Shown: piece after piece, positions 4,924 to 61,576 of the stretch
How the letters are laid out: each line of letters starts with the position of its first letter
How positions within the stretch are numbered: the stretch's first letter is position 1
NCBI GenBank assembly: GCA_950295325.1
Contig: OX485803.1
Span: 42,115,554 to 42,179,553 of the forward strand
Length of the DNA: 64,000 nt
Direction: 5' to 3'
Origin: Polytrichum commune
Lineage: Eukaryota; Streptophyta; Polytrichopsida; Polytrichales; Polytrichaceae
Position numbers and translations under genes: made by a program
Notes under the pieces: model-generated
What the model was told of the DNA's origin: nothing
The model's input: only the letters and a program-made list of their open reading frames with translations
Databases searched by the model: none

Positions 4924-5249
4924 GTTCGTCCACCAACTTTATTTGTCACCACATACCTCAAGGACTCAATATCTCGTTGAACAAAGTTGTTTTCTACTCC
5001 TTGGCGGTAATTTTTTGAGCAACACATTGGTGAATACATCCTCGTATCTTACCAACATCCCACAAATGTGGTTTGGGGGAGGCCATCTTTCCTAGCCTTC
5101 CCATGAGTTTCTTGAAGTTGCTCCAATTGAACCACAACCACTATTATTATTTTTTCTCATTTATTCATTTGGTCCATTAAGACCAAATTTGACTCGGTTT
5201 CTCCTACCATAGGAGTCATTGTCAATTTGTAGTTCAATTCTTTCTCATT

Positions 5250-5640
5250 ATGGCACATCACAAATGCACTGCAAGCTCACCGACTTGCACCTCACATCTA
5301 TCATGTGAGATTTAAAGAAGGTGGCCTTTACAATGACATGCACCTCATTTATTTCACATAGTGTGAAATCTTGACAAAAATCCAATATCCCAGATTAAAA
5401 GGTCACATGCATCGCCGCCTCCTTTGCCTCATGCGGTCACCCTTTGCAAACCGCACCTTGGTAGGCTTGCCCGCTCCACCGGTTGGCAAGCCCCAACTCC
5501 CTTGTGAGCTTTGGGCTCATGAAGGAGTGCGTTGCTTCTTTGTCAACCCATTAGATATTTCTCCCATTGATTCCGGCCATAATATACAAATGACTTGGCC
5601 TTGGCCTAAGGCTTCCAGCGTTGGCCACAAATCCATCATC
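5250..5640 (-). pseudogene. Retropepsin-like aspartic protease of Ty3/gypsy element (relic)
   Basis: The minus-strand frames read ATHSFMSPKLTRELGL, then KPTKVRFAKG, then DFTLCEINEVHVIV. This order is typical of gypsy protease: the region just after the DTG active site, the flap region and the following strand. The active-site DTG itself is not preserved (the residues before ATHSF read VDKE). Frameshifts separate the blocks. Confidence 0.6.
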
Positions 5641-5905: not shown

Positions 5906-6138
5906 TGGGCCAAACTACTTGTGTTCATTTCCTTGGGACCTCTTTCGGCTAAAGCCACTTTGTGATGGTGCTCTTCTAATTTTAATGATCCCCGCTACGT
6001 CCTCAAGAGACTTTGGGGACTTGAATTTGTTCAAGTATGGGCTCCAAAATGTCAAGATCTTGTCAGAGTAGGGTTGCGTATGACTATTTTAAATAAGTTT
6101 GTGGGGCTTTTGATTGGACTGGAAGGAGGAGAGCCTAA

Positions 6139-6623
6139 GGGCCACTTCACACACGAGACTGAGAGCCCGTGACCATTCACTTCAAGCACTCTCATTGGTG
6201 GAAAAGGCGGACATAGTCCAAGCTTGCTTCACATTACGCTTGAGGGACCAACGGAGAATGTGAATGCAAGATGGATGTAAAGTCTACATGGCATCAAATC
6301 GATCATGTTTCATGGTCACTTGGACTATTCTCAAAAACCATCTTTTGGAGGTAGGCCTAACACAAAACCGCGAAACCATGGCATTTTGAATGCTCACATC
6401 TATTGATTTATTCTATTTAATCATGTGTGAGGACTTGTATGAATAAAAATTCATTGGAATAGCATCTGGTTTAGGGCACAATCACTACGGCTTCACACTA
6501 CACTTGAGGACCCGTAACCACACTACATGGTTTTGGAAGTGTCTTGGGACGGCTTTTGGACATTTTTTGTTGGGCTCTCATAATTTCATGGTCACGGCTC
6601 TTGGCTCATGTGTGAAGTGGCCC
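6139..6623 (+). mobile_element. PIF/Harbinger-type (Tourist-like) MITE, left copy
   Basis: 485 bp, bounded by terminal inverted repeats GGGCCACTTCACACACGAG / CTCATGTGTGAAGTGGCCC. TAA is present on both sides (6136-6138 and 6624-6626), which fits a 3 bp target duplication. It has no coding capacity. TIR and TSD type match PIF/Harbinger-derived MITEs; no transposase source is in the window. Confidence 0.7.
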
Positions 6624-6783
6624 TAACATGGTGTTATGTCACTATGTTGCATTCTTGCTAGTTTACGTAAGTTCACTGGAAAATATGAAATGCATTCAGT
6701 TTATAATGTGAAGATAAATTAATAGATGGTAATTTTTTTTTTATAGTAACGAGCACGATAATAAGTGGTAAGATACGACCTAA

Positions 6784-7281
6784 GGGCCACTTCACACACG
6801 AGCCAAGAGCCGTGACCATGAAATTGTGAGAGCCCAAAAGAAAATGTCCAAAGGCCATCCCAAGACACTTCCAAAACCATGTAGTATGGTCACGGGTCCT
6901 CAAGTCTAGTGTGAATCCATATGTGTTGGGCCCTCAACCAAATGCTATTCCAATGAATTTCTATTCAGCCAGGGCCTCACACATGATAAAATGGAGCAAA
7001 CCAATGGTTGTGAGCGTTCAAAATGCCATGGTCTTCTGGTTTTGTGTTGGGCTTGCCTCCAAGAGGTGATTTTTGATAATAATCCAAGTGACCATGAAAC
7101 ATGATCCATTCAATGCCGTCTAGGAATCCATGTAGACTTTACATCCATCTTGCATTCACATACTCAGTTGGTCCCTCAAGCGTAGTGTGAAGAGAACTTG
7201 GACCGGCCCCGCCTTTTCCACCAATGAGAGTGCTTGAAGTGTAATGGTCACGGGCAATCAGTCTCGTGTGTGAAGTGGCCC
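6784..7281 (-). mobile_element. PIF/Harbinger-type MITE, inverted right copy
   Basis: 498 bp with the same TIRs as the left copy but in reverse orientation. The flanks are TAA (6781-6783) and TTA (7282-7284), so a clean direct target duplication is lacking. This is expected if the copy arose by inverted duplication rather than by its own transposition. Confidence 0.65.
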
Positions 7282-7397
7282 TTAGGCTCTCCTCCTTCCA
7301 GTCCAATCAAAAGCCCCACACACTTACTTAAAATAGTCATACGCAACCCTACTCTGACAAGATCTTGACATTTTGGAGCCCATACTTGAACAAATTC

Positions 7398-43750: not shown

Positions 43751-45469
43751 TGCATGGTCACTAGGCTTGCCCTTAACGACGAAAGAGGCCGGGCAACAAG
43801 GAAGCGGCTCCAAGTTCTGACGTTAGTACCACTGAACTCTACTACACTAAATAGGATATTTAGTGTCTGATTATATTAGTGTTGTTACCGCCCTACCCTA
43901 CTCAACACTAATTTTCAAGTTTTTGATAATTAGGGTCGTTGTCTTCCCATCGGCCCACCTTCCTACTCGCTTACAGCTTCTCCGCTAGGAATTAGACTAG
44001 CGCTCGAGGGGGCGTGGTTCTTGGGAGTGATTGCGCTTCAAGGTGTTATTTTCATACGAGCTCTTACAGGTGTTGACTGTTGCTGCAGAATTGAGCGCAA
44101 AATTTAGTATACTGCTTTTTCTTGGGTGGTTGAGGCTGTTGGAGTTTGTGTGAAGGATTTTGGTTCACTGCATTTTTGGCACTGGATCTGCTTGAAAAAT
44201 CTAGTACTTGGAATGTGCTTTGTTTCCCCTTACATAAATCTACTTTGAATTTTGCAAACCTGCTTTGTTTCAAGGCTGACTGTTCAAGGTCTTAAATTTG
44301 CGGATTACATAACATCATCATCAAATTGTGCTACTTCATCTTTGAACTCAAAGTTAACAAGATCATCAGCTGCAGTAGCAGAAGCAAAATATTGCAACAA
44401 CTTTCGAGCGAGCAGAACTTCCATCATAACTAATACTCAATTCAAACATGTCACTTCCACATATTACCATAGTTGATATTTAGTGCTTGAGTTTACATTT
44501 AGTATTACTTATTTTCATAGCTTTATTGATATTTAATGTATGCGTTCGTATTTAGTGTATCAAACACTAAATATCCTATTTAGTGAGCAGCTACAATTTG
44601 TAGGCATACATCCCTCTTACCAATGAAACCTACCTTGACGTCCGTGTATATCTCAACACTACACTAAATATTGTATTTAATGTAAGCACAATAAAGTGGA
44701 CAGTTCCTAATCCTCGCATTGGTTTAAGTCAAAGTGATGCAAAATTATATGTTATCTTTGAGTTTTGTGAAGAGAAAAACCATAAACATTTCAGACCTTG
44801 TGCAGCCACTAGCCCACGAACTTTTTTGGCTAGTGGCTAACCCAATAGGTAAGAGTGTGAGGCCAAACCCACCACCCTTAAGCGTCCTAGTCCGGGTGAT
44901 GGTTTTGAGAATCACATGTATTGTTTGTGTATTGAAAATGCTCCCTTCACACCCCAAGGCATTTATGTCATTTTGAATCACTTTGTTTATTAATGGTAGC
45001 CTCTTGACTTATGGCCGAATTGGCCTTCTCAAGGGTCCAACCGGCGGCCTTGGCAACACAAGCTCTCAAAGATATTCCCCTTTGGCCTTTGATTATCCTC
45101 TCCTTCACTTTTCCATTGCTAGAGTCTTCCACTTTCTCCATCGGCCTAACCTCCTTCGTCTCGCCACCGCGGATGTCCTCCACCTTCTCCATTAGTAATC
45201 CAAGTGATTTATTTTGACCAATAGGTTCAAGTGTTGAAAAACACTTTTATCAATGGTTCAAGCACCAATACATTCAAAAATCACACATGCCCTACCTAAC
45301 CTAATGAATCCAATACTTACCTAAGGCCTAAGATATTCTAAAATAATCTATTGTGGTCTAAGGTTAATTTGTGGTGAGGCCGCTAAGGTTACTATGTATT
45401 GATTCGTTAAGTGAAGGCCTAACAAGGCTTAGCCCGAGCTTAATCCAAGATTTGCCCCGGCCCAGTAGA
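43751..45469. other. Spacer with CACTAAAT inverted words, no gene seen
   Basis: 'acactaaataggatatttagtgt' lies near 43843-43867 and 'aacactaaatatcctatttagtg' near 44563-44585, with a third partial copy near 44658-44680. Frames on both strands at 44968-45217 are repetitive (EKVED... on minus) and unrecognised. Confidence 0.4.
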
Positions 45470-46287
45470 GTTAGCTAGTTGCCCCAGTTGGGCTTCGGCC
45501 AGCAGAGTTGTATCTGGTAGCAAGTAAGCTAGATGCCCCAGTTGGGCTTCGGCCAGCAAAGTTGTATCTGGTAGCAAGTCAGCTAGCTGCCCAGTTGGGC
45601 TTCGGCCAGCAGAGTTGTATCTGGTAGCAAGTAAGCTAGATGCCCCAGTTGGGCTTCGGCCAGCAGAGTTGTATCTGGTAGCAAGTAAGCTAGATGCCCC
45701 AGTTGGGCTTCGGCCAGCAAAGTTGTATCTGGTAGCAAGTCAGCTAGCTGCCCAGTTGGGCTTCGGCCAGCAGAGTTGTATCTGGTAGCAAGTAAGCTAG
45801 ATGCCCCAGTTGGGCTTCGGCCAGCAGAGTTGTATCTGGTAGCCCAGTCAGCTAGCTGCCCAGTTGGGCTTCGGCCAGCAGAGTTGTATCTGGTAGCAAG
45901 TAAGCTAGATGCCCCAGTTGGGCTTCGGCCAGCAGAGTTGTATCTGGTAGCAAGTAAGCTAGCTGCCCCAGTTGGGCTTCGGCCAGCAGAGTTGTATCTG
46001 GTAGCAAGTCAGCTAGCTGCCCAGTTGGGCTTCGGCCAACAGAGTTGTATCTGGTAGCAAGTCAGCTAGCTGCCCAGTTGGGCTTCGGCCAACAGAGTTG
46101 TATCTGGTAGCAAGTCAGCTAGCTGCCCAGTTGGGCTTCGGCCAGCAGAGTTGTATCTGGTAGCAAGTCAGCTAGCTGCCCAGTTGGGCTTCGGCCAACA
46201 GAGTTGTATCTGGTAGCAAGTCAGCTAGCTGCCCAGTTGGGCTTCGGCCAGCATAGTTGTATCTGGTAGCAAGTCAGCTAGCTGCCC
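45470..46287. repeat. ~54 bp minisatellite, about 15 units
   Basis: The unit 'gccccagttgggcttcggcc' + 'agcagagttgtatctggtag' + 'caagtaagctagat' repeats about 15 times as 53-55 bp variants. Units 1-3 are repeated as units 4-6, giving a 161 bp higher-order period. Variant bases (cagcag/cagcaa/caacag; taagctagat/tcagctagct) define subfamilies. The 93-codon plus frame (45776-46057) is a by-product: the array has no start context and drifts out of frame because of 53 bp units. Confidence 0.95.
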
Positions 46288-47029
46288 CCCTTAAATGACA
46301 CCACCTTAGGTGCTAATCAACCATCCACTAATTTCTTCTTCCTTGCACTTTGGCTAAATGATCTAACCTACACCGCTAATGAACTAAACTAATCTAACAC
46401 ACACTACTCTAAGAGCTACTTACTTCACACACCTTGTCTCAAGCTCTAAGAGCTCACCCCCTTTAGAAACAATGAGAGAGAGAGCTTAACTAATTAACTC
46501 CACTAAAACTAATAACCTACACACGTGGCTCAAGCTCTTGAGGACTTGCTCTCTTGAGAGCGCTTGATGGAGAGAGTTGTAAATGAGAGAGAAAACACCT
46601 TAAGTAGCAAAGAGGGAGAGAGGGAGAGAGAGGTGAGGATAGGGTGAGAGGATTAGCACCTCCAATCACAATCCCTTAACCTTCACCTCTAAAGTAGGGA
46701 CTAATCCCCATCCACCAAGCTTCCTTCTTCCTAAACTAACAAGGTGGATCCAAAAGTGGGCATTTAACCCGCGGAGCTCACCTTGCTTCACCTTACCCCC
46801 TACTCACATAATCAAGGCATTATCCTATTGAACTTAACCCTTGAAATAACCACCCAACACATTCTAAAGCCTAAACTTAAATCCAAATCACACTTCACTC
46901 TTTTTATGTTTTGTGAATAATCATAACACATCAAAGTCAAACTAAAATTGGTTTCGAAGAGTTAATCACCACATGTGGGCACCATTTTGGGCTCACAAAG
47001 AGTTATGGCTTAAAACAAAACTTGAAAAG
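46288..47029. other. Spacer, no gene seen
   Basis: AT-rich with GA-rich simple sequence at 46610-46640. No frame of interest. Confidence 0.4.
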
Positions 47030-47447: not shown

Positions 47448-47757
47448 TGTCACGGTATGCGGTGTCGGCGGCCATACCTCATCCGTGGAGTTTCTACATT
47501 TAGACTTGGATGGATAAATCTTAAGAGTTGGAAAGGTGCTCCTAAATGAGGAGTCTCCTCCTTAGCTTCGCATTCTTGCTAAGTCAAGCCTAATGAGTGA
47601 GTGTGTGAAGATTGCATGTTTTTGTAATGAAATCTTCAGTTTCTCTCCCCTTACTTACAATTTTATATTTTCCCGTGGTAGATTGAAAGATAACTTAATT
47701 CATAGTGTGCATTTGAAAAGAAAATTAAAGCTCATACTAGGGTTTGATTCTCTTCCT
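47448..47757 (+). repeat. 5' LTR (partial)
   Basis: Starts TGTCACGGTATGCGGTGTCGG and matches 58489 onward in order ('tcggcggcca', 'ggtgctcct', 'gaggagtctcctcctt', 'gattgcatgtttttgtaatg', 'actagggtttgatt'). Homology stops near 47757, so the 3' end of this LTR is replaced or deleted. Many substitutions separate the two LTRs, so the insertion is old. Confidence 0.7.
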
Positions 47758-49001
47758 TCTCACTTGGCAAAAATCCTTCATTTTTCTTATTTTTTTTTCA
47801 TTCTTGATATATAACACGCAAGGGAGAGCATGAGGACAAGGAGTGACGAAGTTGCGGAATGTTGGAGCAAAGAAAACCGCAGAGTAACAAAAAGAAGAAT
47901 GCTTGCTTCGGAATGACACATCAAGGTGAATTATGGTGATGAATTCTTGAATTGTCCATGAAATTTCTTGTCATTTCATCGCTTGCAAGCTTCAATTCGC
48001 GCCATTGAGCTGTAAAAAAAAATCTTGGTTCGGATTGACGACAAAATATTGATTAAGAAAAGAGAAAAAAATCAAAAATCAAAGGTGCGGGAGAGCCGAC
48101 TTCGGGAGCTGAAGCCCTTAGTCGGCTCTGCTGCAACTTACTAGCCTACTAGCCAAGTTGTGGGGCCTGGGCGCGGCTGGGCCCTCCCTCCTAGCTCCCC
48201 CAACCTTCTAGCCTACCCCCTTATCCCACGGATTCCAGGGATTTATTAGGGGGAGGGTGAAATTTCTATATTGTAGTGAGGAGATGAGAAATGTGCTTAT
48301 GTGTGATTTCTTTTCCGCGGCAATGGGGATATTTCACGCTTGACCACCAAGCATATGCAAGTGTCAGTTGCGCATTGTCACTTTTAATTTTAGCTTAAGT
48401 ATTGTTTGACAAAGAATATCGAGTACTACAAGTGCATTGCTTTTTGTATTTCGTAGTGGTATCTTCCCACGTGGCGGGTTGTATTCCTGGAAATTGCCAG
48501 CATTGCTGCATTTTTTGTTGTGTTAATTTGTGATAATGTATCGTGGAGTTGAGGTCGGACTGATGACTAACAAGACCTTTGTATTTACATCAAGTGGGCC
48601 ATGCTTGTATTCTTTAATGATGAGGTTGGGTTGATAACCAACATACTATAAAGTTGGTGGTGGTTGCATGTACAAATTGCCTTTCATATTTTTTATTTTT
48701 ATCTTGATAACATACATACGTTCTTTAGCTAGGAATCATTGACGATATAGAAGAGGGGACGTAACAAGGCATTTGAGACCGATTTTCCGTTCGAGTAGGA
48801 ATCATTTTCCTATAAAATTGGAAAATTTGGTTTAGAGCATGGACGAGAGAGAAGCATCAACGTAATAGAAATTTTAATGACTGATATGCATTCGAGTTTT
48901 TATTCTAACATATGAAATATGAAGCGCTTCAAACTTATAAGCAGTGGAAGAATATTCATTGGATGGAGTTATGCTAAGTAGAGCGGTACTAGGAGAGTCA
49001 A
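47758..49001 (+). other. Untranslated leader of the retrotransposon
   Basis: No open frame of note. A 10 bp-stem hairpin AGAGCCGACT/AGTCGGCTCT lies at 48092-48129. A primer-binding site could not be chosen because the LTR/leader junction is lost. Confidence 0.4.
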
Positions 49002-50060
49002 ATGAAGTTGGTTCTCGCATTGAAAGAGTGTGCGACTGCTAATTTATTAGCCGCTCTTGTGCTTAAGATAGAGCAAACAAAGGACATCTTTATAGTGGAT
49101 GTGGAAGGGCCTTTCTATGGTGAACCTAAGAAGAAAGTTTCTGCTTCTGTACCTATGAATACGTCAAGCCCGATCTTTATTTTTCTAATGTTATGCTTAG
49201 GCTACCCACGCGGCATTAGGTTCTTAAGGGGCTCCGCCAGAATTTGATCCTCTGTAGGAATCTTATTTTCATTTGGAGGAGGAATACGGTAGTTTTTGTC
49301 AGAATCAAATGCAACGGATTCAACATTTCAGGCAGAAGAAAGACGATACGCCTTGTACCATATATACGAGGTTGGTCAAATTTGCCAAGGAGTCTGGAGG
49401 TATTTTCGCAGAGAAGCAATTGGTGAAGGTTTTTTTTGTCAAAGGTAAACAAATGCCTCATTTAGCATTGCCTAAAATTATTATGGGTTATGGTGGGCGG
49501 ACAATACTTGCAAAGGCATTCATTATTGTGGAGTAGTGTGATCGTGCAATGTGCGAGCATGATGTCACTTACTTGGTATCCTTGCTATTGGATTCTAGCA
49601 AATTCCAAAGAAATTTTGTTGTAACTAATAAATTTATCAGAGTCAGAGATAAACAAGACCTTATATTAATGGTCTTGTTAAGAGTTTGACCACGATAAGA
49701 AGGATTTTCCTTCGAAGCAAAAGAAGGACCACACTGTGAATCATCCAAAATGCAAGCCAACTGTCTCCACTAAGGACTCAATAAAGGAGGTTATGACACT
49801 TTACCAAAGCAGTGGAAGTGTTCCTATTGTGGGCGGAACAATCACGTGGTGGAAAATTACTTCGCTCTTCATCGAGAAAAAAAAAAGTATTTCTTCCGAA
49901 CGAAAAAAGCGTTGGAGGCGAAAATTGGCATCTCAGAAGAGAGGTTAAAAAATTTGGCGTCATCTGACCAAATCTTGGAAACACTGGCTCAACCGGAGCT
50001 AAGGTTAGATATTCTACTCTGGGTTATTATATGTTTTGAGCTTCGGGCATGGTCGTAATT
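49002..50060 (+). pseudogene. gag (capsid/nucleocapsid) relic with CCHC zinc knuckle
   Basis: Frames read QKKDDTPCTIYTRLVKFAKE and ALPKIIMGYGGRTILAKAF, a gag-like helical region. They are followed by Lys-rich KKDFPSKQKKD and a zinc knuckle CSYCGRNNHVVENY, with C at 49819 and 49828 and H at 49843. The fourth ligand is Tyr (49858-49860) instead of Cys. Gag would package the element RNA. Several frame changes (near 49250, 49540 and 49700) show that it cannot be translated. Confidence 0.65.
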
Positions 50061-50530
50061 CTAGTATGTAGACTTCAAATCTGGCGACCGACATGATACA
50101 CACGTTAGCATCCAAAGTGTTGCACACACCTTTGTTCACAGTGATGCAATGTCTAAGGTTTTCCACCTAGCAGGTAGAATTTGGAAGGGAATGCATCATT
50201 ATCATCTCTAACTGTGGCTCAAGCCACCGTAAACTTTCTTGTCACTAAGGATCCCGTGGAAGCGGTTAAACGGCGAGCGAGACTTACAGTGGAGGCTATT
50301 GTTTCTTTTGACGCAAACATCCCAGATAACAGGGGGTCAACCACATTTTATAACTCACCAAAATGCGTGGAAGCAGTTTATTTGTCAAATGAAGCTGCTA
50401 AATCTGCACGTAAGCGTCGAGGCATTTCGACCCAACGTCCTACATATGGTGAATGACACCAACATTTTGGTGGTTAGTTGCTTGGGGACAACCTCGGGGG
50501 GTGCACCTTTCATTAAAACCTAGAATCACG
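50061..50530 (+). pseudogene. gag-protease linker remnant
   Basis: Two overlapping frames (50181-50456 and 50239-50523) of 90-94 codons. The first holds TVAQATVNFLVTKDPVEAVK. No catalytic motif is visible. They probably belong to the polyprotein between gag and protease. Confidence 0.35.
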
Positions 50531-50734
50531 TGCGTTCACTGCATACTCTAAAAACCCCCTATATACAAGTTATTTTTTGTGAAATGAAGTAATACACATA
50601 CAATTGCCACAATAAATATACAAGTGACAATATGTATACACAAAAATAATCCATTCATATATAGTCATTAACATAAGTATACAAATATACTTTTGAACAA
50701 TAATCAACCCCTATAATATGTATAACAAAATATC

Positions 50735-51760
50735 CTAGCTTTCATCAGCAAAGTCGTTGAAAACTTTTTCATCTCCTGGATGTAACTCATAAACATTTGA
50801 TTCACCAATATATGTCATTATAGCCAATGCAATTATTGTCTCTAAGTCTATCATCAAATGATCAGTAAGATCATATGTCCACTTGTTGTTAGCCCCTTTT
50901 AAATACCAACATAAACCAATCTCCACGTTTGATGGACGGTCCATCAAGTCAATTGGATCCTCGGGGGGGGGGGGGGGGGGCAGTGTGTTAAAAAATTAAG
51001 GATATAGGTGCGAACAACCACTATTTTACAGGGGGGTATTACTTTCAATTCTTTTTCTTTTTTCACATGCTATCATTATGTGATTTTCTACTTTGGGTTA
51101 ATAGAAAAATGGCTTGCATTACTTATAATTCCAGATGACCTATTATCCCATACCCTATAGTACTTTAAAGATGTCCAGTGCCATTTTTGATACCTTATAT
51201 TACTCTTAAGTCCATTTATAATTTTTTGCCCCCATGTTTTTAAAATACCCTATCATTTGTTCGCACGTATATTGCTACTCCAACCAATGAGTACCCCCCC
51301 CCCCCGAGATTGGATCCCTATACTCCACCCAACGATTACCAAACTTCCTCCGTATCTTATAAACTCTCCCAACAAACCAAACATGAACTCGAGTAGATTT
51401 TTTTGGCCTACCTCGTTTTTTCACAGTTTTAGTTTTAGGTGTGTTCAAAAAACACACACCACAGTCACAACCAAGCTTTAACAAAGTGTCATGGTTTCCA
51501 ACACTCTGGAGTTTAGGCTTCATATATAATATGCCAGCTCTAATTCGAGTCAACCGATCTTTAGACAAAGAAGGATTGCCTTTCAATTGACTAACAAGTG
51601 TACTTTTAAAAATTCTAGACTCCCCTACCATTACATAAGCCACAGTTGACTTTGCATTTGATAGAGACGGAATTTCAGAACGAGGCCATGACAATGTCAA
51701 GACTTTCGGTGATTCCCACGGCAGCAGTAACCGTAGGGACGCTGAGAAGCGCTGGAAGCA
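50735..51760 (-). pseudogene. Unknown AT-hook-like ORF, split by a 348 bp insertion
   Basis: The minus-strand frame runs from about 51760 through LTRIRAGILYMKPKLQ, LGCDCGVCF, KKRGRPKKSTR (AT-hook-like) and WFVGRVYKIRRKFGNRWVEY to the insertion at 51308. It resumes at 50960 with DLMDRPSNVEIGLCWYLKG and ends at a stop near 50735 (...FNDFADES). Across the insertion the frame is continuous if one copy of the 9 bp ATTGGATCC duplication is removed. At least 210 residues; the start is not clear (first Met about 30 codons in). The family is not recognised. It is antisense to the retrotransposon and lies between gag and protease, so it probably arrived as a separate element. Confidence 0.5.
50961..51308. 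mobile_element. 348 bp MITE with poly-G termini and 9 bp target duplication
   Basis: ATTGGATCC is present at 50952-50960 and 51309-51317. Ends are TCGGGGG(n) and (n)CCCCGAG. Further in, GATATAGGTGCGAACAA and its inverted near-copy (TTGTTCGCACGTATATT) extend the terminal repeat to about 70 bp. A 9 bp duplication fits Mutator-type elements. The homopolymer ends are unusual and may include sequencing slippage in run length. Confidence 0.7.
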
Positions 51761-52219
51761 ACAGTTGAAAGAAGGAAAAATGAAGCAGTTGTCGGCAAAA
51801 GAAGTAGGCTATGCGAGAAAAGAAAACAAAAACCTTCAGCGCCCGACAAAAAGAGAAATCAAAAACCTAGGGATGGGAGGGGAAAAAGGTCCTTGTTACT
51901 TTGAGCTGAACGAATCATTTCAAAACCCTATTACTGCCTCTTTCCCCGATATTACCTTCACACCTTGTACATGGTTCATACTACCCTATAAGGTTGCTAA
52001 CGAAAATCGTTAATCCTAGTTAATCCTAATTTCATCCAATATGAAAACTTATGATATGTAGTATAGTAACAGTACCATACAAGTACAATTATTGTATACT
52101 TTTTAAAGGCCTTCCATATATGTACGTAACTATAAATTATAACATGTATACCATATATATACGTAATACGGCAAGGTCCAAATCAATACCCCTCCTGTGC
52201 ACTCACGTATACTCGTACA
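51761..52219. other. Non-coding segment between the AT-hook ORF and the protease
   Basis: Purine-rich at 51760-51890, then AT-rich. The 82-codon plus frame (51765-52013) is lysine-rich and unrecognised. It is probably part of the foreign insert or its promoter region. Confidence 0.35.
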
Positions 52220-52549
52220 TGTTTAGTACAGTGCACCCCCCGAGGGGACAACGCCATTTGGGTTGCTCCCCAGTGTGTAATGATGCATTCGGGGACGAAA
52301 TCAATTATGATCAGCAAAAGGTTTGCCCAAGTATTACGGTTGATGAATTGGTTATTTGCCCATTTGCCATCATCACATTTGTTGGCCACTGGTTATATTC
52401 GGAAGCCATTACAACATAATTTCCGAGTGAAGCTTGAACATCCGCCCGCATTTCTTCTTCTCATGTGTGCGATGACAGTTGCGACCAACTACGACATTTT
52501 AGTTGGTCATCAAACACTATATTTTCTCGGTTTTGATTTAATCAACTAG
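52220..52549 (+). pseudogene. Aspartic protease of the retrotransposon
   Basis: The active-site region reads MHSGTKSIMISKRFAQ, followed by CAMTVATNYDILVGHQTLYF. In this family the residue before S/T-G is the catalytic Asp. Here it is His (codon CAT at 52286-52288), so the enzyme would be inactive even if made. The YDILVG block corresponds to the second half of the retropepsin fold. The frame is open for about 90 codons. Confidence 0.7.
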
Positions 52550-52880
52550 ACTGAGAAGGTTTGGATCCGACATGGTTGGTAGGTTGGGGACAGTTGAAAG
52601 GAATTTATTCCTCTAGCATTCGCAGTAGTTGTGACCACAATACAATTATCCATGGTTTTAGATGTGGTACTATTGTGGACCCATTGCTGAGGATCAATGG
52701 GAGAGGGCACAAAATGATGCATAGGTTCATCATCCCAAGGATCCTCTTCCTCCCTAGTATGATTCTACCGAACTTTTCCGTAAGTGTGAAGACATTGTCC
52801 CCTCTCGCGGTTCTACAACAACACCCATATGGGATATCCCATTGGCGTTGGCACATCCCATTTCATGGCGTCCAACAGAC

Positions 52881-53840
52881 AAGGGAATTAGTTTGGTGAA
52901 ACTATTTGGGGGCACCGGGATAGGATTGGCGGCCGTACTGGAGACTGATCTCATGATTCAATAGTATGTCTATGTGGATGACAATGACGTGTCCACCCGT
53001 ATAGCTTAGCACCATTTCCACTAGTTGATGGTCTTGTACCCACAATAGTTGGAGCCAACTGCCATTCGTGGTTGTTTTGCACGTCTTCCTTATGATGTAC
53101 CACTTATCAGTGAGGCAGACTTACGCAGGTTGGGCCCCATGAATATGGCAATAACAAGATGGCCATGCCAAGGCCACTCACGTGTTGGAGTAGGCCAGGG
53201 TTGGAGGATCCGAGGCCTAGTCTTTTTTGAGACCTCATCCGCTCATGTAGTGGTGGTTTGCCCACCAACCTTCTCTTCCAGAATACATATTCGAGAATGT
53301 ACCTCTGTTGGAAGACTTTTCGGACAAGGTGTTGGAAGGTAGACATTATGTTTGTCAACACCTTGGTGATCTCATTTTTGTGGATGCCGCGGGCCTTGGT
53401 TCTTATGCCCACCGGCCTCGGTGGCTTTGGACCAACCTCACACCGTTATCCACTTTAGCTACAACATTTTTTGCAGTCCCTTCACCTTCTGATAAGAGGG
53501 TGGAAGACATCTTGGATTTAAACCAAACCTCTTTGCCGGTTGTTCAAAATGATTTACTCCGGTTGGCATTAGTCAATAAAGTGGGGCACCATGGAGGGCC
53601 TAACTTTTCCACAGTCGTTTGCATTCCGCAATCGAGGGCTTGGTATAGAGTGGGATGCTCTCACCAAAACCACACCGAACCATTGGCTGACGATTGGGAG
53701 CGTGCCGTGGAATTTTGAATTGGCACCACAACAACTTTTGGCCTTTCTGAGGGCCAACAATGCTTCGTGTTGGACCAAACCATGGATCTTAAAACCATCA
53801 TATGGACTGTTGGTTTATGCCTTGCATTGCAACAACATTG
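52881..53840 (+). pseudogene. Cytosine-5 DNA methyltransferase domain of the retrotransposon
   Basis: Motifs in canonical order: motif I VKLFGGTGIGLAAVLE (from 52896; SAM-binding glycine loop); an acidic YVYVDDNDVSTR segment as in motif II; motif IV RWPCQGHS with the catalytic Cys at 53166 followed by a G-rich GVGQG; motif VI FENV (53290-53301); motif VIII-like SYAHRPRWLWTN (about 53401-53436); and a C-terminal TMDLKTIIWTVG near 53776. Motifs I to IV share one frame over about 270 bp despite four TAG stops. A frameshift separates IV from VI and another lies near 53720. Domain length (about 320 codons) suits a DNMT3/DRM-size catalytic domain, and HRxR-x-x-W-x-N resembles the DNMT3 region. It would methylate cytosines, perhaps in the element's own DNA. 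Inactive here. Confidence 0.8.
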
Positions 53841-54137
53841 TGGTGATCAGTTGTTGTCCCTGGGGACGGAGGACTCTAATCAGGGACACAACGGTCCACA
53901 TCTATAAACGAGGGAATTGAGGCCATGGTTGTAGAAGCCGAACGAATCTCTCGATTTGAGCAACAAATGATCGAAGAGCTTTGAGCTTAATGGGTTTATA
54001 CTGCTTTGGCTTCTCCGCCTCCGGTAGTGGCTTCGTCATCACATATCGGTGGTGATGAAGAGAGGTTAGACTCTATTATTGGCACTGAGGTTGGGGGCAT
54101 GGTTAATGTCCCCTCTTCTTAGTAGCAGCTAAAATTT

Positions 54138-56060
54138 GTGCCAACATCAGGTGGTTCCCCTCTAATGGAGTGGGAGACCACAAAGTTTGATGATTGGCCA
54201 TTGGAATTAGGCCTTTATCTCACTAGTGCTGAGGCATGGAAGGTACGAGCGTTCGTTTGCTCGTATCATAGGTGTTTTGTTTACAGCCTTGAAGACCTTG
54301 AAGGCTATAAAGAAAAATCCATGCACATTCAATTGGAGGACGACCATTCTATTTTTCGAAGACCTTATAGGCTATGTGTTTCCGAGAGGATTGGCGTCAA
54401 AACTCAAGAGCTCTTGGCAGCAAGGATGGTCGAACTCTCCAAGGAGGAGTATGTTTCTGCTACGGTTATGCCATCGTAGAATGATATCTTTGGCAATTGG
54501 ATAGAGAAGCGGGTGTGCGGGGATTACAGTCCAATTAACCGAAAGACGAAGTTGGTTCAATAGCCCATGCCAATGCCGGAGTTGTTCAATGTCATTGGAT
54601 TGTCTCGAGTCTTTAGCACCCTAGACTTGATATATGGCTATCACCAGCTCCCATTACTTATAGGAGATCGACTGAAAACCACATTCTGGAAGTTAATCAG
54701 AATGGAAAGGATCAACTGTACCATTGGAAATTTCTTTCATTACGCCTGAAGAATGCACCTAGTGAATTTTAGAGAGTGATGGACCAGATTCTCTCTGGCT
54801 TGTCTTTTGCTCGATGTTACATTGATGATGTGATCATCTTCAGCAAGACAACACATGAGCATGTAAGACATCTACAAGCCATTTTTTAACGGTCGCAGCG
54901 GTAGGAATTGCGTTTGCACCATGGTTGTCGCGCACCTCTCCATGAGGAGTGCCCGAAACACCATGGGCACAAGGGGGACCCCGGAGTGACACCCGGGACT
55001 TGTGGCGCCGTTGGTGAGAGGGCCCAAGTGATCCTAGTGTGGGCGAGGGCCCCGGGCGTTGGGAACGCCTCCCACCCATGGAGACTAGGAGGCACAAGGG
55101 TAAGGCCATGAGCTATGCGTAGCTCATGGCGTGGTGATTCTAGAATGCTCAAGAACACCTCAATCAGAGGTGTGAGCTAGGAGTTATGGCCATTTGAGTG
55201 GGGCGCTGTCCCGGGACAGCGCCCTGGTACAGCAGTGCCTGGGAGTGATTCCCGGGACTGCAAAGGTTCAAACAGGCATAACTTCCTCAAGACTTGCCTG
55301 AATGGGGCAAGTGAGGAGTCCATCGGCATGTACGTGAAGCGTAGATGAAGATGAAGTGGTTGGTTGTTATGATCAGACATCATACAAGGAAGTTATGATG
55401 GTCTGAAGTTGCTGGGGGCTTCTAGGCCCAGCGGCTAAGGGAAAGTGTCCACTTGGCCCCAACTCTTGGTAGAGAGACAAGAGGTTGGTTGACGGTGGGG
55501 TAGGGGCCCCGCGTAGAGTCCTAGAGGCTTATATGGGTGAGGTGGTGTGGCCTCACCCACCCGAGGCCGAACGGCAAGGCTTCCATGGGCTTTGGCCTAT
55601 TGTGAGGCCATAGTTGCCTAGTATGGTTCGGGTTGTTGTAGTGTTGCTCCGGCAACGCGATGATCAACATAAGATTGGACTTCCATGGATGGAAGTCCAC
55701 ATTGGGGAAATGGGTTACCGATTAAGGGGTGAGTCCCGAAAGCAAAGTAGGAGGGTTGGCTCCCTCCTATGAACTATTGGTCCGGGGTAAGAGGAGCTAT
55801 CCATTAGCATGGCGGAATGCGAATGGTTAGCGCTCGTAACCTTTGCTAGAAACGAAAATTGGCAAGATTGCTAAAGGGGCTAGCAAGGGTTGCGACAATG
55901 GCAAGTGCAAGTATTTTCATGACCGACTAACATATCTAGGTCATATGATTATCCAATAAGGTCTTGGGGTGCAGCAAGCTAAGGTAGACGCTTTGCAAAA
56001 GATTTTGGCACCGGTCGATGTGCCGAGACTTTGTGCTTTCTTTGGTTTGGCGAATTCCTT
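54138..56060 (+). pseudogene. Reverse transcriptase of the retrotransposon (interrupted)
   Basis: The pre-RT segment FVYSLEDLEGYKEKSMHIQL is followed by FRRPYRLCVSERIGVKTQEL, VIGLSRVFSTLDLIYGYHQL (first catalytic Asp) and CYIDDVIIFSKT (intact YIDD, about 54820). The frame enters ELRLHHG at 54905-54924, is cut by a 973 bp insertion, and resumes with GKCKYFHDRLTYLGHMI and AKVDALQKILAPVDVPRL. Stops at 54478, 54561 and 54748 and frameshifts show decay. The YIDD acids survive. Confidence 0.85.
54925..55897. mobile_element. Solo-LTR-like insertion in the RT gene
   Basis: About 973 bp between two ATGG copies (54921-54924, 55898-55901). Its ends are TTGTCGC / GCGACA, so TG...CA termini with a short inverted repeat, as for LTRs. 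Removing it with one ATGG restores the reading frame through LHHG-KCK. It is GC-richer than the host element and has no coding frame; a TTATATGG word near 55530 could be a TATA box. A complete internal region is absent, so a solo LTR is the simplest reading. Confidence 0.65.
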
Positions 56061-56179
56061 TGTCGATTTGTTAAGAACTTTAGCTTGATCGCCAAACCTC
56101 TCACCATTCTGACAAGCAAGGACCTACCTTGGAGTTGGGGTCGTGAACAACAACAAACATTTGAGACATTGAAATAGAA

Positions 56180-56450
56180 ATTGGGTGCGGAAAAAACAAC
56201 ACTACGAAGGCCAATTATTCGTCCTATGAGGGAGAAGCGTTGGCGGCGGTGTGGGTTATTGCCCATTTCCGGCTCTATGGTCAACATTTTACTTTAGTGA
56301 TTAACTATCAGCCTTTACGGTGGCTCATGGAGTCGGATAAGCTTATTGGCAAGCTTGCCAGGTGGGTCTTATTATTCTAGGAATACGACTTTGAGATGGT
56401 ACATCGATGCCGGTATTACCAACTTCGATGCAGATAGATCCTCACGCAAT
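56180..56450 (+). pseudogene. RNase H domain of the retrotransposon (5'-deleted)
   Basis: LGAEKTTLRRPI runs almost directly into NYSSYEGEALAAVW, then FTLVINYQPLRWLMESDKL. The first strand with its catalytic Asp is deleted between the two. The tail LARWVLLF and the following tether are frameshifted. Confidence 0.7.
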
Positions 56451-56799
56451 TCAAGTCCTTTGGATGAGGATTTGACCGGAGGCAAATGGCATGGGGATTT
56501 TTAATGAAAGGCGATTCCAGGTTGGCACACAGTTGTTTACCTTACTTTGTTTTTAGCGTTGCTACTAAGGTTCCAATACAGGGCTCGGATGATGAGATTG
56601 ATCAACCTCAAGCTATTGCGGATATATGGGAGGACCTTCCCGTATTGCATAAGCTTCAGCAAGGGATTTTTTTCCTTATCTATCTCGGCAATTGAAAGGG
56701 ATGGGATTGGACATTGAATAACAAGGCTCCGTTGGAAAAAAAACAGATTTATTATTTCGATTATGATTGGATGAGACAAGGTGTATTATTCCTACACTG

Positions 56800-57720
56800 G
56801 ATCAGTATGTCTCCTTGGTGCAGCAAGTGCACGAGGAATTTGGGCATTTTAGCGTACGCATGACACATTTGATGTTGTGTGGCTAATATTGGTGGACTGG
56901 TATGTATAAGCAGGTGGTTGCTTATGTCGGGAGGTGCGAAGTTTATGACCAGGTCAGATTTAGCTTCAACACCTTATCACCTCAATTACAACCCTTACAT
57001 ATCATGGGATTGGGATACCGTTGGTCGTTGGACTTTGCAGGACCATTGATGGTCACACCACGTGGAGCAAAGTACGTGTTGGTGATAGTGGAGCATTTTG
57101 GCGAGTGAATTGAGCTTGACGCTCTTGCCCAAAACTCTGCAGAGTTGACCGCGACACCTTTTTTAGATCGTGTGTTGGCACGTTTTGGAGCACCGGTTGA
57201 GGTATTGACGGATCAGGGGAGAGAATTTCTCGGTGCTTTTGAGGAGTTGTGTATTTAGGCTCTTATAGTTCACTGTACCACCTCACGGGATCATCCGGAG
57301 GTGGATGGCTTGGCTCAACGGGTTGTTCAAACAACCAAACATGGTTTGAGGAAATATGGATTCTTTTGGGGGAGCCACCGAGATTGGGACCTTATGTTGC
57401 CTTGAATTGCTATGGGCTATCGATTTAGTAGGCAAGCCTCTTTGGTGTCCTACAACCTGTATTAGTTGTTGTATGGACATGAGCCTATACTTCCGAGTTT
57501 TATTCAGGAAAAGCTAGCTTTTGTTGTGGACTTGGATGACCCAAACATTTGGGTAGAGTGTTTGCAGGAGCGGGATCAATTCTTCCAGAGGGCCATACCT
57601 ATGATCATAGAAAATTTGTCCATTGCTTAGCACCGTGACACATTGCGTTCTGCATGCATTCATAGTAGTACTTACCGACCTCAATTCCAGAGATTTCAGC
57701 AGGGGGATTATGGTTATATT
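56800..57720 (+). pseudogene. Integrase of the retrotransposon (catalytic Glu lost)
   Basis: Order: a zinc-binding N-terminus (VHEEFGHFSV ... YVGRCEVYDQ); LDFAGPLMVTPRGAKYVLVI with the first Asp; VEVLTDQGREF with the second; then EVDGLAQRVVQT, where the catalytic Glu is Gln (CAA). Downstream sequence continues through a C-terminal tail (RFQQGDYGYI ... ILRMKEVLPSGLLLLEG) typical of the chromatin-facing end. Stops at about 57106 and 57257 add to inactivation. Confidence 0.8.
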
Positions 57721-57915
57721 TAATGTGAGGCGCCTACAACATTTGATGTTAGAGCGGGGTCCACTATCCTTCGGATGAAGGAGGTGTTGCCGAGTGGTTT
57801 GTTGTTGTTAGAAGGCAAGGAATGTCGGGAGCAATCCAAAAAGTTTGTCCCATGTCATCTACCCATTGAGGATACAATTCATCATGTATTGGCCGTCGTA
57901 CCAGAGGATGTTCTA

Positions 57916-58049
57916 TGTTTTGTGTGTGGGAGAAGAAATGAGTGGCTACTATGCTCTTGTATCATCGGTGTCAACGTGGTTGGCATATGGCATGCGTGAG
58001 GCCACCCTTGACATCTCTACCATTTGGACAGTGGAATTGTCCTCGTTGT
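57916..58049 (+). pseudogene. PHD-type zinc finger at the C-terminus of the retrotransposon polyprotein
   Basis: Ligands match the C4HC3 pattern: CFVC (57916, 57925), then after a one-base frame change LLYHRCQRGWHMAC with Cys at 57969, His at 57984 and Cys at 57993, then QWNCPRC (58038, 58047). The third ligand position is Tyr (TAT, 57960) instead of Cys. The Trp two residues before the last Cys pair is present, as expected for PHD fingers. PHD fingers usually read histone H3 tails, so this module could have guided integration or the methyltransferase. Confidence 0.75.
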
Positions 58050-58488
58050 CAAGGATCTTCAGTACCTAGTGCTTCCACCAGTTGTATTCAATGATCCTGT
58101 GTGGTTTTCACTGTGTTGTGCATGCCCAAATATAAAATGAAGAGTTATGGTTTAGAGACGCAATTGAACGTGAGACGATAGAATTAATTCTTTGGAATCT
58201 GATGGCCAAACATCAAAGGCGATTAAAGATAGGACTCACACTACACCCAACCTACAGTTCCTTAGAATAACATTCACCACATTAGTTGATTACGGATCAA
58301 TTCTTCATTATCTATGTCCTTTGGATTGGTATTGGTCCTAGCAGCTTGGCGGGGCTGCATAGTCAACTAAAGGGGGACCATATGTAGGTGTGTTATGTAT
58401 GTGTGCATTTATTATGTTTTAGTGTTATTTGTTAGTGGTTGTTGGTACTCGAGTTGTAGTGATACACGATCGTTATTTACACGACAAC
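58050..58488 (+). other. 3' untranslated region of the retrotransposon and LTR-tail fragment
   Basis: No coding frame. Sequence at about 58388-58487 ('tgtatgtgtgc', 'tatgttttagtgttatttgttagtgg', 'ggtactcgag', 'ttatttacacga') repeats the last ~95 bp of the 3' LTR (58835-58927). A piece of a second LTR end thus lies just inside the 3' LTR. Confidence 0.55.
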
Positions 58489-58927
58489 TATCACAGTATG
58501 CGGCGTCGGCGGCCACACCTTATCTATGGGGTTTCATTCATTTAAATTTGGATGGATGAATCCTAGGAGTTTGAGAGGTGCTCCTAAGTGAGGAGTCTCC
58601 TCCTTGATTTAGCATTCTTGCCAAGTCAAGCCTTGTGAGTAAGTGTCTGAAGAGAGCTTGTGTAAGGTGAAGATTGCATGTTTTTGTAATGAAATCTTGA
58701 GTTCTTATTTCCTTACTTACATACTCTTTGAATTCTCCCGTGGTGGAGTGAGAAATAACTTGACTCATTGTGTGCATTTGAAGAGAGAATTAGAGCTCTT
58801 ACTAGGGTTTGATTATCTTCCTACTTTGTGGAACTATGTTGTGTATGTGTGCCTTTGTTATGTTTTAGTGTTATTTGTTAGTGGTGGTTGGTACTCGAGC
58901 TACAGTGACACATGATCACTATTTACA
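58489..58927 (+). repeat. 3' LTR
   Basis: About 439 bp, starting TATCACAGTATGCGGCGTCGG (TG end changed to TA) and ending ...CACTATTTACA before the minisatellite resumes. Collinear with 47448-47757 over its first ~320 bp. Confidence 0.7.
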
Positions 58928-59095
58928 CGATAGAAGCCTGAAAAATATGGACTAGCCCAACTATGGCTAGATCGAGGCTTGAAAAATGTGGACTAGCCCA
59001 GCTATGGCTAGATCAGGGCCTAAAAAATACGGGCTAGCCCAACTATGACTAGATCGAGGCCTAAAAAATATGGGCTAGCCTAGCTAGCTAATGGA
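58928..59095 (+). repeat. ~41 bp minisatellite, right block
   Basis: Four units of the form 'gatcgaggcctaaaaaatat' + 'gggctagcccaactatggcta', the same repeat as at 47030-47447. Confidence 0.8.
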
Positions 59096-60352: not shown

Positions 60353-61576
60353 GGGGATCGCTATTTCCACACATTTTTTGCCTAGATTCACACCTTTTTG
60401 CCGGTTCGGTTGCCGTGTCACTGAGGCGCTATATATGAGATTCTTCATGGTGCATCCGGACCGTTGATCCACCAAGGCCCATCCAAGGGCCTGAATGATC
60501 CTAGGTGGCGGTGGGGTGGGGTGGGGGGGGGGGGTGGTGCTTGCCACCAAGGCGGGGTGGGGCCGTGGGCCTCATGTCTTTTTTGGGGAGGCCGGATTTA
60601 GGGTGGTGTCGGGCCTAGTGGCTAGGCGGGCCCAGTGGCTAGGCCTACTTATTATATAACTAGTTGGTTAGCCTTACTCTACTTACTAAATAACTAGTTG
60701 GTTAGCCTTACTCTACTTACTAAATGACTAGTCGGTTAGCCTTACTCTACTTACTAAATAACTTGTCCCGGAATTGATGGGAACTCGTACCCGTTAATGT
60801 AGATGGGTCTTAAATGGTTAATTTTCAAACTAGCCTACTTATGGCATGATATGAAACAAGTAGGTTAGTACGAGATGGTTAGCAAATCCAAATCAAAATT
60901 TAGGAGCTCATATGAATTTAGGAGCTCACATGTATATTTGAGTGGTATATGTGCAAGTCTTGAAGTTAGGTATGGAGACCTATATGATCATTATTGACAC
61001 CATAATAATCTTCACTTTGATAATGACTAAGATATTCATATGAGCTCCTAAATTTTGATTTGGATTTGCTAACCATCTCGTACTAACCTACTTATTTCAT
61101 ATCATGCCATAAGTAGGCTAGTTTGAAAATTAACCATTTAAGACCCATCTACATTAACGGGTACGAGTTCCCATCAATTCCGGGACAAGTTATTTAGTAA
61201 GTAGAGTAAGGGTAACCGACTAGTCATTTAGTAAGTAGAGTAAGGCTAACCAACTAGTTATTTAGTAAGTAGAGTAAGGCTAGCCAACTAGTTATATAAT
61301 AAGTAGGCCTAGCCACTAGGCCCGACACCACCCTAAATCCGGCCTCTCCAAAAAAGACATGAGGCCCACGGCCCCACCCCGCCTTGGTGGCAAGCACCAC
61401 CCCCGCCCCCCACCCCACCGCCACCTAGGATCATTCAGGCCCTTGGATGGGCCTTGGTGGATCAACGGTCCGGATGCACCATGAAGAATCTCTTATATAG
61501 CGCCTCAGTGACACGGCAACCGAACCGGCAAAAAGGTGTGAATCTAGCCAAAAAATGTGTGGAAATAGCGATCCCC
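60353..61576. mobile_element. Long fold-back transposable element with 8 bp target duplication
   Basis: 1224 bp. The left arm 60353-60917 is nearly identical to the reverse complement of the right arm 61034-61576, with a 116 bp loop. AAAGTATA flanks both ends (60345-60352, 61577-61584). Ends are GGGGATCGCTATTTCC and its complement. Each arm contains three to four tandem ~34 bp units ('taactagttggttagcc' + 'ttactctacttactaaa') and a G-rich tract. No coding capacity. The 8 bp duplication suits a hAT-mobilised fold-back element. Confidence 0.85.

Follow-up and report, generated by a model that had tools for sequence, protein, structure and literature searches.

An interrupted Ty3/gypsy-type element with a decayed methyltransferase

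The window (the whole stretch of 64,000 nucleotides analysed here, located at C1:42115554-42179553 of the host genome) contains a Ty3/gypsy-type element spanning positions 47448-58932, from terminal repeat A1 to terminal repeat B2, which is interrupted twice and whose right end was read directly. Its repeats and coding remnants all lie on the + strand. The left end is formed by A1 (47448-47761), which begins with TGTCAC and is 74% identical to the A repeat of copy L023 (blastn). ORF1 remnants follow (48714-50496; tblastn matches to ORF1 of L023, L027 and L013), comprising a gag-like part and a spacer with stops and frame changes. The gap between ORF1 matches is filled by a DNA-transposon-like insert (50493-52244) with 14-bp inverted ends (CTCGGGGGGTGCAC) and an 8-bp flanking repeat (GGGACAAC); this insert itself contains an inner insert (50960-51308) bounded by poly-G/poly-C. 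Next come a retropepsin-like protease remnant (52244-52660; 53% identity by tblastn to residues 717-862 of L027 ORF1, the Asp_protease_2 model staying below cut-off in open copies), a decayed, DNMT3-like cytosine-5 methyltransferase (MTase, 52689-53886), and a fast-evolving tail that runs from the MTase to a UAG stop (53883-54074; tblastn and segment divergence). The counterpart of the stop between ORF1 and ORF2 of open copies lies at 54123-54131 (UAG then CAGCTA, of the form CAR-YYA), and the window reads TAGTAG then CAGCTA over 54120-54131. Downstream are remnants of the reverse transcriptase (RT) and RNase H (54126-56380, interrupted at about 54986-55896; tblastn to ORF2 and Pfam RVT_1 and RT_RNaseH), of a DDE integrase with H2C2 zinc finger and rve core (56740-57939; 69-76% by tblastn, and Pfam), and of a PHD finger at the integrase C-terminus (57942-58049; Pfam PHD E 0.0028, below a cut-off that is exceeded in L014 and L028). 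Terminal repeats B1 (58386-58489), A2 (58491-58825) and B2 (58837-58932) close the element, with blastn identities of 87% to L024 B, 84% to L023 A and 91% to L024 B, respectively. As A1 and A2 are only 78.5% alike, the window copy is old, and its ends no longer carry matching 4-bp duplications (AAGG on the left, GAAG on the right).

The MTase block displays motif I (LFGGTGIGLAAVLE), motif IV (WPCQGHS), motif VI (FENVPLL), motif VIII (HRPRW) and a C-terminal block in this order, scattered across three reading frames with in-frame stops. We compared it with open copies from the same host genome, namely L027 from subfamily S2 and L013 from subfamily S1. Against the MTase part and tail of L027 ORF1, positions 52689-53201, 53242-53886 and 53883-54074 show 65%, 63% and 67% amino acid identity (tblastn, E 0.0 for the linked matches). 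Identity to L013 is 44-48%, except for one stretch of 15 residues (53198-53242) at 73%. The MTase domain of L027 matches PF00145 (E 8.6e-13), as do those of 14 out of 14 open copies. Searched in isolation, pieces of the window MTase yield no such match: four short pieces hit no Pfam family at E<=1 and no NCBIfam family, one piece returned four chance rows in the PDB (E>=0.33) and another none, and in the three frames scanned as they stand, with X for each stop, Pfam recognised RT, RNase H and integrase but not PF00145. These pieces are too short and too broken to be assigned to a family. A chance occurrence of the motifs is ruled out by the tblastn matches to open genomic copies.

Thus, positions 52689-53886 are unmistakably a decayed C5-MTase, with protease remnants immediately 5' and the RT immediately 3'. 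The original prediction of C5-MTase motifs in canonical order between protease and RT, on the same strand as both, is confirmed by the tblastn matches to L027, and its placement in a Ty3/gypsy-type element by the Pfam domains of open copies together with the order of tblastn matches in the window. The MTase does lie at the predicted 52881-53840, with a start set about 190 bases too late. A search with the DNA methylase family profile, which had been suggested as a check, fails on the window pieces and succeeds on the open copies.

The methyltransferase recurs across a family with young copies

We searched the host genome (407.8 Mb in 64 contigs, seven of them large, which suggests n=7) for relatives. 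The PF00145 profile gave 123 scored matches among 353 candidates and, when two match lists are merged, at least 211 distinct MTase loci are present. Among the best 150 of 1527 RT candidates, a listed MTase match precedes the RT by 0.3-8 kb, in the same orientation, in at least 135 cases (the remaining 15 may have one among unscored matches), and 127 of these 135 show a spacing of 1.30-1.45 kb. The predicted association would have been contradicted by relatives lacking an MTase between protease and RT; such an MTase is instead the rule. With the shorter PF00145 list alone, the figures are at least 32 of 80 RT matches, and at least 19 of 32 when ORF2 reaches 900 aa or more. At 15 of the 150 MTase places listed, an open frame of 1386 aa has no stop within the match. 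In addition, A1 and A2 are 99.3-100% identical in eight of nine copies (94.6% in L015), so some insertions are young. Jointly with the life cycle proposed below, we consider it probable that a DNMT3-like C5-MTase is a regular part of a Ty3/gypsy-type family in a land plant, of which the window block is a remnant.

ORF1 encodes, in order, a gag-like part, the protease and the MTase. In the two copies analysed with Pfam, PF00145 is above cut-off and aspartyl-protease models are below theirs. As no Pfam gag model matched ORF1, the gag label relies on position and on a zinc knuckle in L027, itself below the Pfam cut-off. By contrast, RVT_1, RT_RNaseH, Integrase_H2C2, rve and PHD all exceed their cut-offs in the two ORF2 analysed. 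ORF1 and ORF2 share a frame and are separated by a single UAG, followed by CAATCA, CAATTA or CAACCA (all CAR-YYA) in 15 out of 15 copies examined (15 of 18 MTase-bearing loci, L001, L002 and L006 being left out). Some plant viruses are known to have leaky stops with CAR-YYA after UAG; we found no literature pairing CAR-YYA with a retrotransposon. The MTase is located with the protease on the gag-protease side of the stop, and would join the RT in one polyprotein only upon read-through. Its predicted location between protease and RT holds, with the difference in detail that it belongs to the gag-protease ORF, outside the RT-integrase ORF.

The PHD finger is present in all seven ORF2 read. Its nearest PDB relatives include CHD4, PHF12, DPF2, PHF21A, KMT2D, KDM5 and ATXR5, a class whose members we take to read mostly histone H3 unmethylated at K4. 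In most S1 copies, the leader from A1 to ORF1 also contains a complex set of direct and inverted repeats (L009-L028, odd loci, about 5120-5520).

Class of the methyltransferase

A profile built from the MTases of the 14 open copies retrieved 57 PDB sequences at E<=1, with DNMT3A, 3B and 3C chains occupying the top 29 rows (DNMT3A leading at E 9.1e-13). Weaker rows include M.HaeIII (31 bits), tobacco DRM (31), M.HhaI (28), Arabidopsis DRM2 (22) and DNMT2 (20), and no DNMT1 or CMT chain appears at this threshold. Foldseek agrees, as the 50 rows listed out of 1295 are all DNMT3 entries, for an AlphaFold query model that is poor (mean pLDDT 44.3). Profile and fold comparison thus support DNMT3 as the nearest class, nearer than CMT or MET1 as had been predicted, with pairwise scores that place the elements only slightly nearer to DNMT3A (113 and 87) than to DRM2 (86 and 73). 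The DNMT3A and DNMT3B catalytic domains have profile, fold and motif order in common with the element MTase, in which motifs I-X are unrearranged (14-row alignment and DNMT3A alignments). However, the likeness does not extend to motif IV, which is PCQ in all 14 aligned copies and PCN in DNMT3; nor did Pfam detect an ADD or PWWP domain in two ORF1. The name DNMT3 has likewise been given to published retroelement enzymes for their catalytic domain.

Plant DRM enzymes have a related catalytic core, but their motif order is rearranged, yielding a split profile match, unlike the element MTase. Besides element copies, a DNMT3A search of the host genome recovered a single further locus (C2:4703600-4703959) among the 150 scored of 299 candidates. 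This locus is a DRM exon of 120 residues, 63 of 119 being identical to DRM2. DRM is plant-specific, and its presence in the host genome supports the prediction of a land-plant element. The host DRM exon shares 26-30 of about 110 residues with the elements; this low identity and the motif order rule out that the MTase was derived from the host DRM. No host DNMT3 was detected among the 150 scored of 299 candidates, a list filled by element copies. A moss DNMT3 exists, and DNMT3 has been lost in flowering plants, according to passages of PMC9994747.

Terminal repeats and joints

In nine of ten fetched pairs, A1 lies to the left of the ORFs and B1-A2-B2 to the right (A-ORFs-B-A-B); the tenth pair (L009/L010) shows no A1/A2 pair in the fetched stretch. 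Reading by eye, we found perfect 4-bp target duplications around TGTCAC...CACGACA in nine out of nine copies (GAAG, TTAT, TAGC, CATC, ATTG, ACTT, GATG, GAAG and TGTC). The elements thus end in TG...CA, with A on the left and B on the right, unlike identical LTRs. The inner B1-A2 border reads GACA-GC-TGTC. With any two bases allowed in the middle, this B-A pattern was counted 175 times genome-wide and never in the backward control, and the two middle bases are GC at 85 of 100 B-A places listed. B begins right after a purine-rich GGGGGCA and A ends beside a putative priming stretch; these neighbours suggest that the LTR corresponds to B+A.

We examined the A2-B2 border at 29 sites (20 hand-picked sites and nine pairs). 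At 23 of them the same two points are joined, point changes being allowed, and six are altered: L020 has lost 28 nt at a 4-nt microhomology (CTTG), L080 retains 12 nt of the purine tract, L086 retains ACT from the primer side, one extra A is present in each of L089 and L090, and L082 is also altered. To judge from their sequences, the altered joints are likely the trace of linear cDNA end-joining into a two-LTR circle, in which the integrase would then cut the B-A palindrome. One copy carries a tandem duplication of 133-138 bp in both A repeats (L013 4414-4679, L014 3978-4239), as expected if both A repeats derive from one template.

A proposed life cycle

Given the leaky CAR-YYA stop context, the MTase would be a gag-level product, and low-frequency read-through of the UAG would yield RT, integrase and PHD finger as a read-through product. 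The MTase would be packed together with RNA, RT and integrase. Reverse transcription would then produce a linear cDNA with LTRs of the form B+A, whose ends would be joined into a two-LTR circle. The integrase would cut the palindrome GACAGCTGTC at the inner B-A border, with loss of GC, and a permuted circle would be inserted. The MTase may methylate the cDNA, the circle or the site of insertion; by analogy with published relatives that have been tested, CpG would be its likeliest target. CG methylation by retroelement DNMTs is reported in the abstract of PMC5890265. The PHD finger, of the class reading H3 unmethylated at K4, may guide or retain the complex. What the element gains from methylation is a matter of guesswork, perhaps a host-like chromatin disguise or a limit to its own damage.

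We regard this overall explanation, an MTase-bearing family with read-through, circle integration, methylation and PHD guidance, as probable. More tentative, and in our estimate slightly less than evenly balanced, is the specific combination of two-LTR-circle integration (the joined cDNA ends being ignored and the LTR palindrome cut, giving an asymmetric permuted insert) with a DNMT3-like MTase made at gag level and a PHD finger of the H3K4me0 type, in which the circle would be methylated before entering matching chromatin. The CpG observed/expected ratio is 0.65-0.77 for the ORFs of the elements and 0.64 for the window element; it is 0.55 for the window outside that element, and flanks have 0.39-0.86. 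The element values are no lower than the surrounding 0.55, and so give no hint that self-methylation has lastingly added to CpG methylation at the host level. CpG content thus does not point to the suggestion that the element could methylate its own DNA or alter host silencing.

Alternative explanations

The A-B-A-B arrangement might have a DIRS-like origin, in which a B1A2 template closes the ends and the A2-B2 border is merely inherited. Its repeat order does match that of the DIRS-type and KnitGypsy elements in the figure legends of PMC5890265, but we find this origin rather unlikely in view of the DDE-type integrase and 4-bp duplications, and of the fact that B starts after the purine tract, A ends by a primer-site-like stretch, and altered A2-B2 borders retain pieces of exactly those neighbours. 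The MTase could also act on host DNA or on RNA instead of the element's own DNA. RNA methylation has been raised for LINE-type relatives in the discussion of PMC5890265, and the PHD finger might direct the complex to chromatin of the host; against this, the closest fold is that of the de novo DNA methyltransferase DNMT3, and we hold such a target to be unlikely.

Two further alternatives concern the enzyme itself, and we give little credence to either. Derivation from a phage or bacterium rather than from a eukaryotic DNMT3 would fit PCQ in motif IV, and the copy alignment did retrieve 28 MTases from viral contigs (a single window piece found no relative there and the RT found nothing); the best of them, at 48.7 bits with the element profile, comes close to DNMT3A. 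A search of phages gave 518 records with a weak match. DNMT3A nevertheless has the top score (51.3 bits), and a 23-row tree separates the elements, DNMT3A and DRM2 from 17 of the viral-contig MTases with support of 95/93, in a topology with an unsettled bootstrap, long DNMT3A and DRM2 branches and no trusted root. It is also quite improbable that a single capture left the elements with a passenger MTase that has lost its use and is decaying in most copies. Stops in the window copy and in many listed copies would agree with it, as would a pN/pS within young S1 copies of 0.60 for the MTase (0.10 for RT), which indicates that recent constraint is weak or is blurred by post-insertion mutations. 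Between S1 and S2, however, dN/dS is 0.126 or 0.146 for the MTase (two computations), which is well under 1 and comparable to the gag value (0.092); RT has 0.041, integrase 0.029 and the PHD tail 0.111, these ratios coming from pairwise counts with dS near saturation (1.9-2.2). On these counts, the MTase is under purifying selection over long times in two diverged subfamilies, less strictly than RT. The S1 and S2 MTases, about 64% alike, both keep the catalytic motifs, and the 1386-aa frames without a stop in the match also argue against a mere passenger.

Relation to known elements

The closest description is that of KnitGypsy-Dnmt3 from Klebsormidium nitens, reported in the main text of PMC5890265 to have Gypsy domains, a conserved DNMT3 under purifying selection and A-coding-B-A-B repeats. 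Compared by this published description, the present elements are alike in their Ty3/gypsy domain set, unrearranged DNMT3-class MTase, repeat order and purifying selection, and differ in their land-plant host, gag-protease-side MTase before a UAG, PHD finger, 4-bp duplications and joint evidence. That main text contains neither 'PHD' nor 'readthrough', and 'TSD' for a LINE-type element only. More broadly, in the literature passages searched we found no MTase on the gag side, no leaky stop, no PHD finger and no circle joints. SymbioDIRS-Dnmt3, described in the same main text, is likewise a retroelement with a DNMT3-class MTase and A-coding-B-A-B repeats, but it has a tyrosine recombinase where the present elements have a DDE integrase and 4-bp duplications. 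Split direct repeats are common to DIRS and the present elements; no tyrosine recombinase matched in the two copies scanned, which have an rve integrase instead.

Relative to Ty3/gypsy LTR retrotransposons in general, the protease-RT-RNase H-integrase order is kept (with protease models below cut-off) and TG...CA ends with duplications within the usual 4-6 bp are found in nine out of nine copies, whereas the two ends carry A and B in place of identical LTRs. As in chromoviruses, a chromatin-reader-type domain lies behind the integrase; in two ORF2, Pfam found no chromodomain there but a PHD finger. The Phygy and Selgy lineages are described in PMC6317226, whose main text contains no occurrence of PHD or methyltransferase. 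In titles and abstracts, covering few subscription papers, we recognised neither a land-plant MTase-carrying case nor any gypsy element described as having split repeats or passing through a circle.

DNA-methylating LTR elements, described before from one alga, are thereby extended to a land plant, where many copies are young. Two questions become open to test: does an element benefit from bringing along the silencing mark of its host, and can circle joints be the normal substrate of a DDE integrase? To our knowledge, textbook LTR biology excludes the latter for retroviruses.

Other features of the window

Outside the element, the window contains a tandem array at 45469-46288 (repeat unit about 54 bases long, with about 94-96% similarity between copies) and long imperfect palindromes at 60353-61576 and 6023-7397 (91% and 84% self-complementary, respectively). 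An open frame at 35766-37160 matches DUF7796 (E 5.6e-129) and is probably a host gene.
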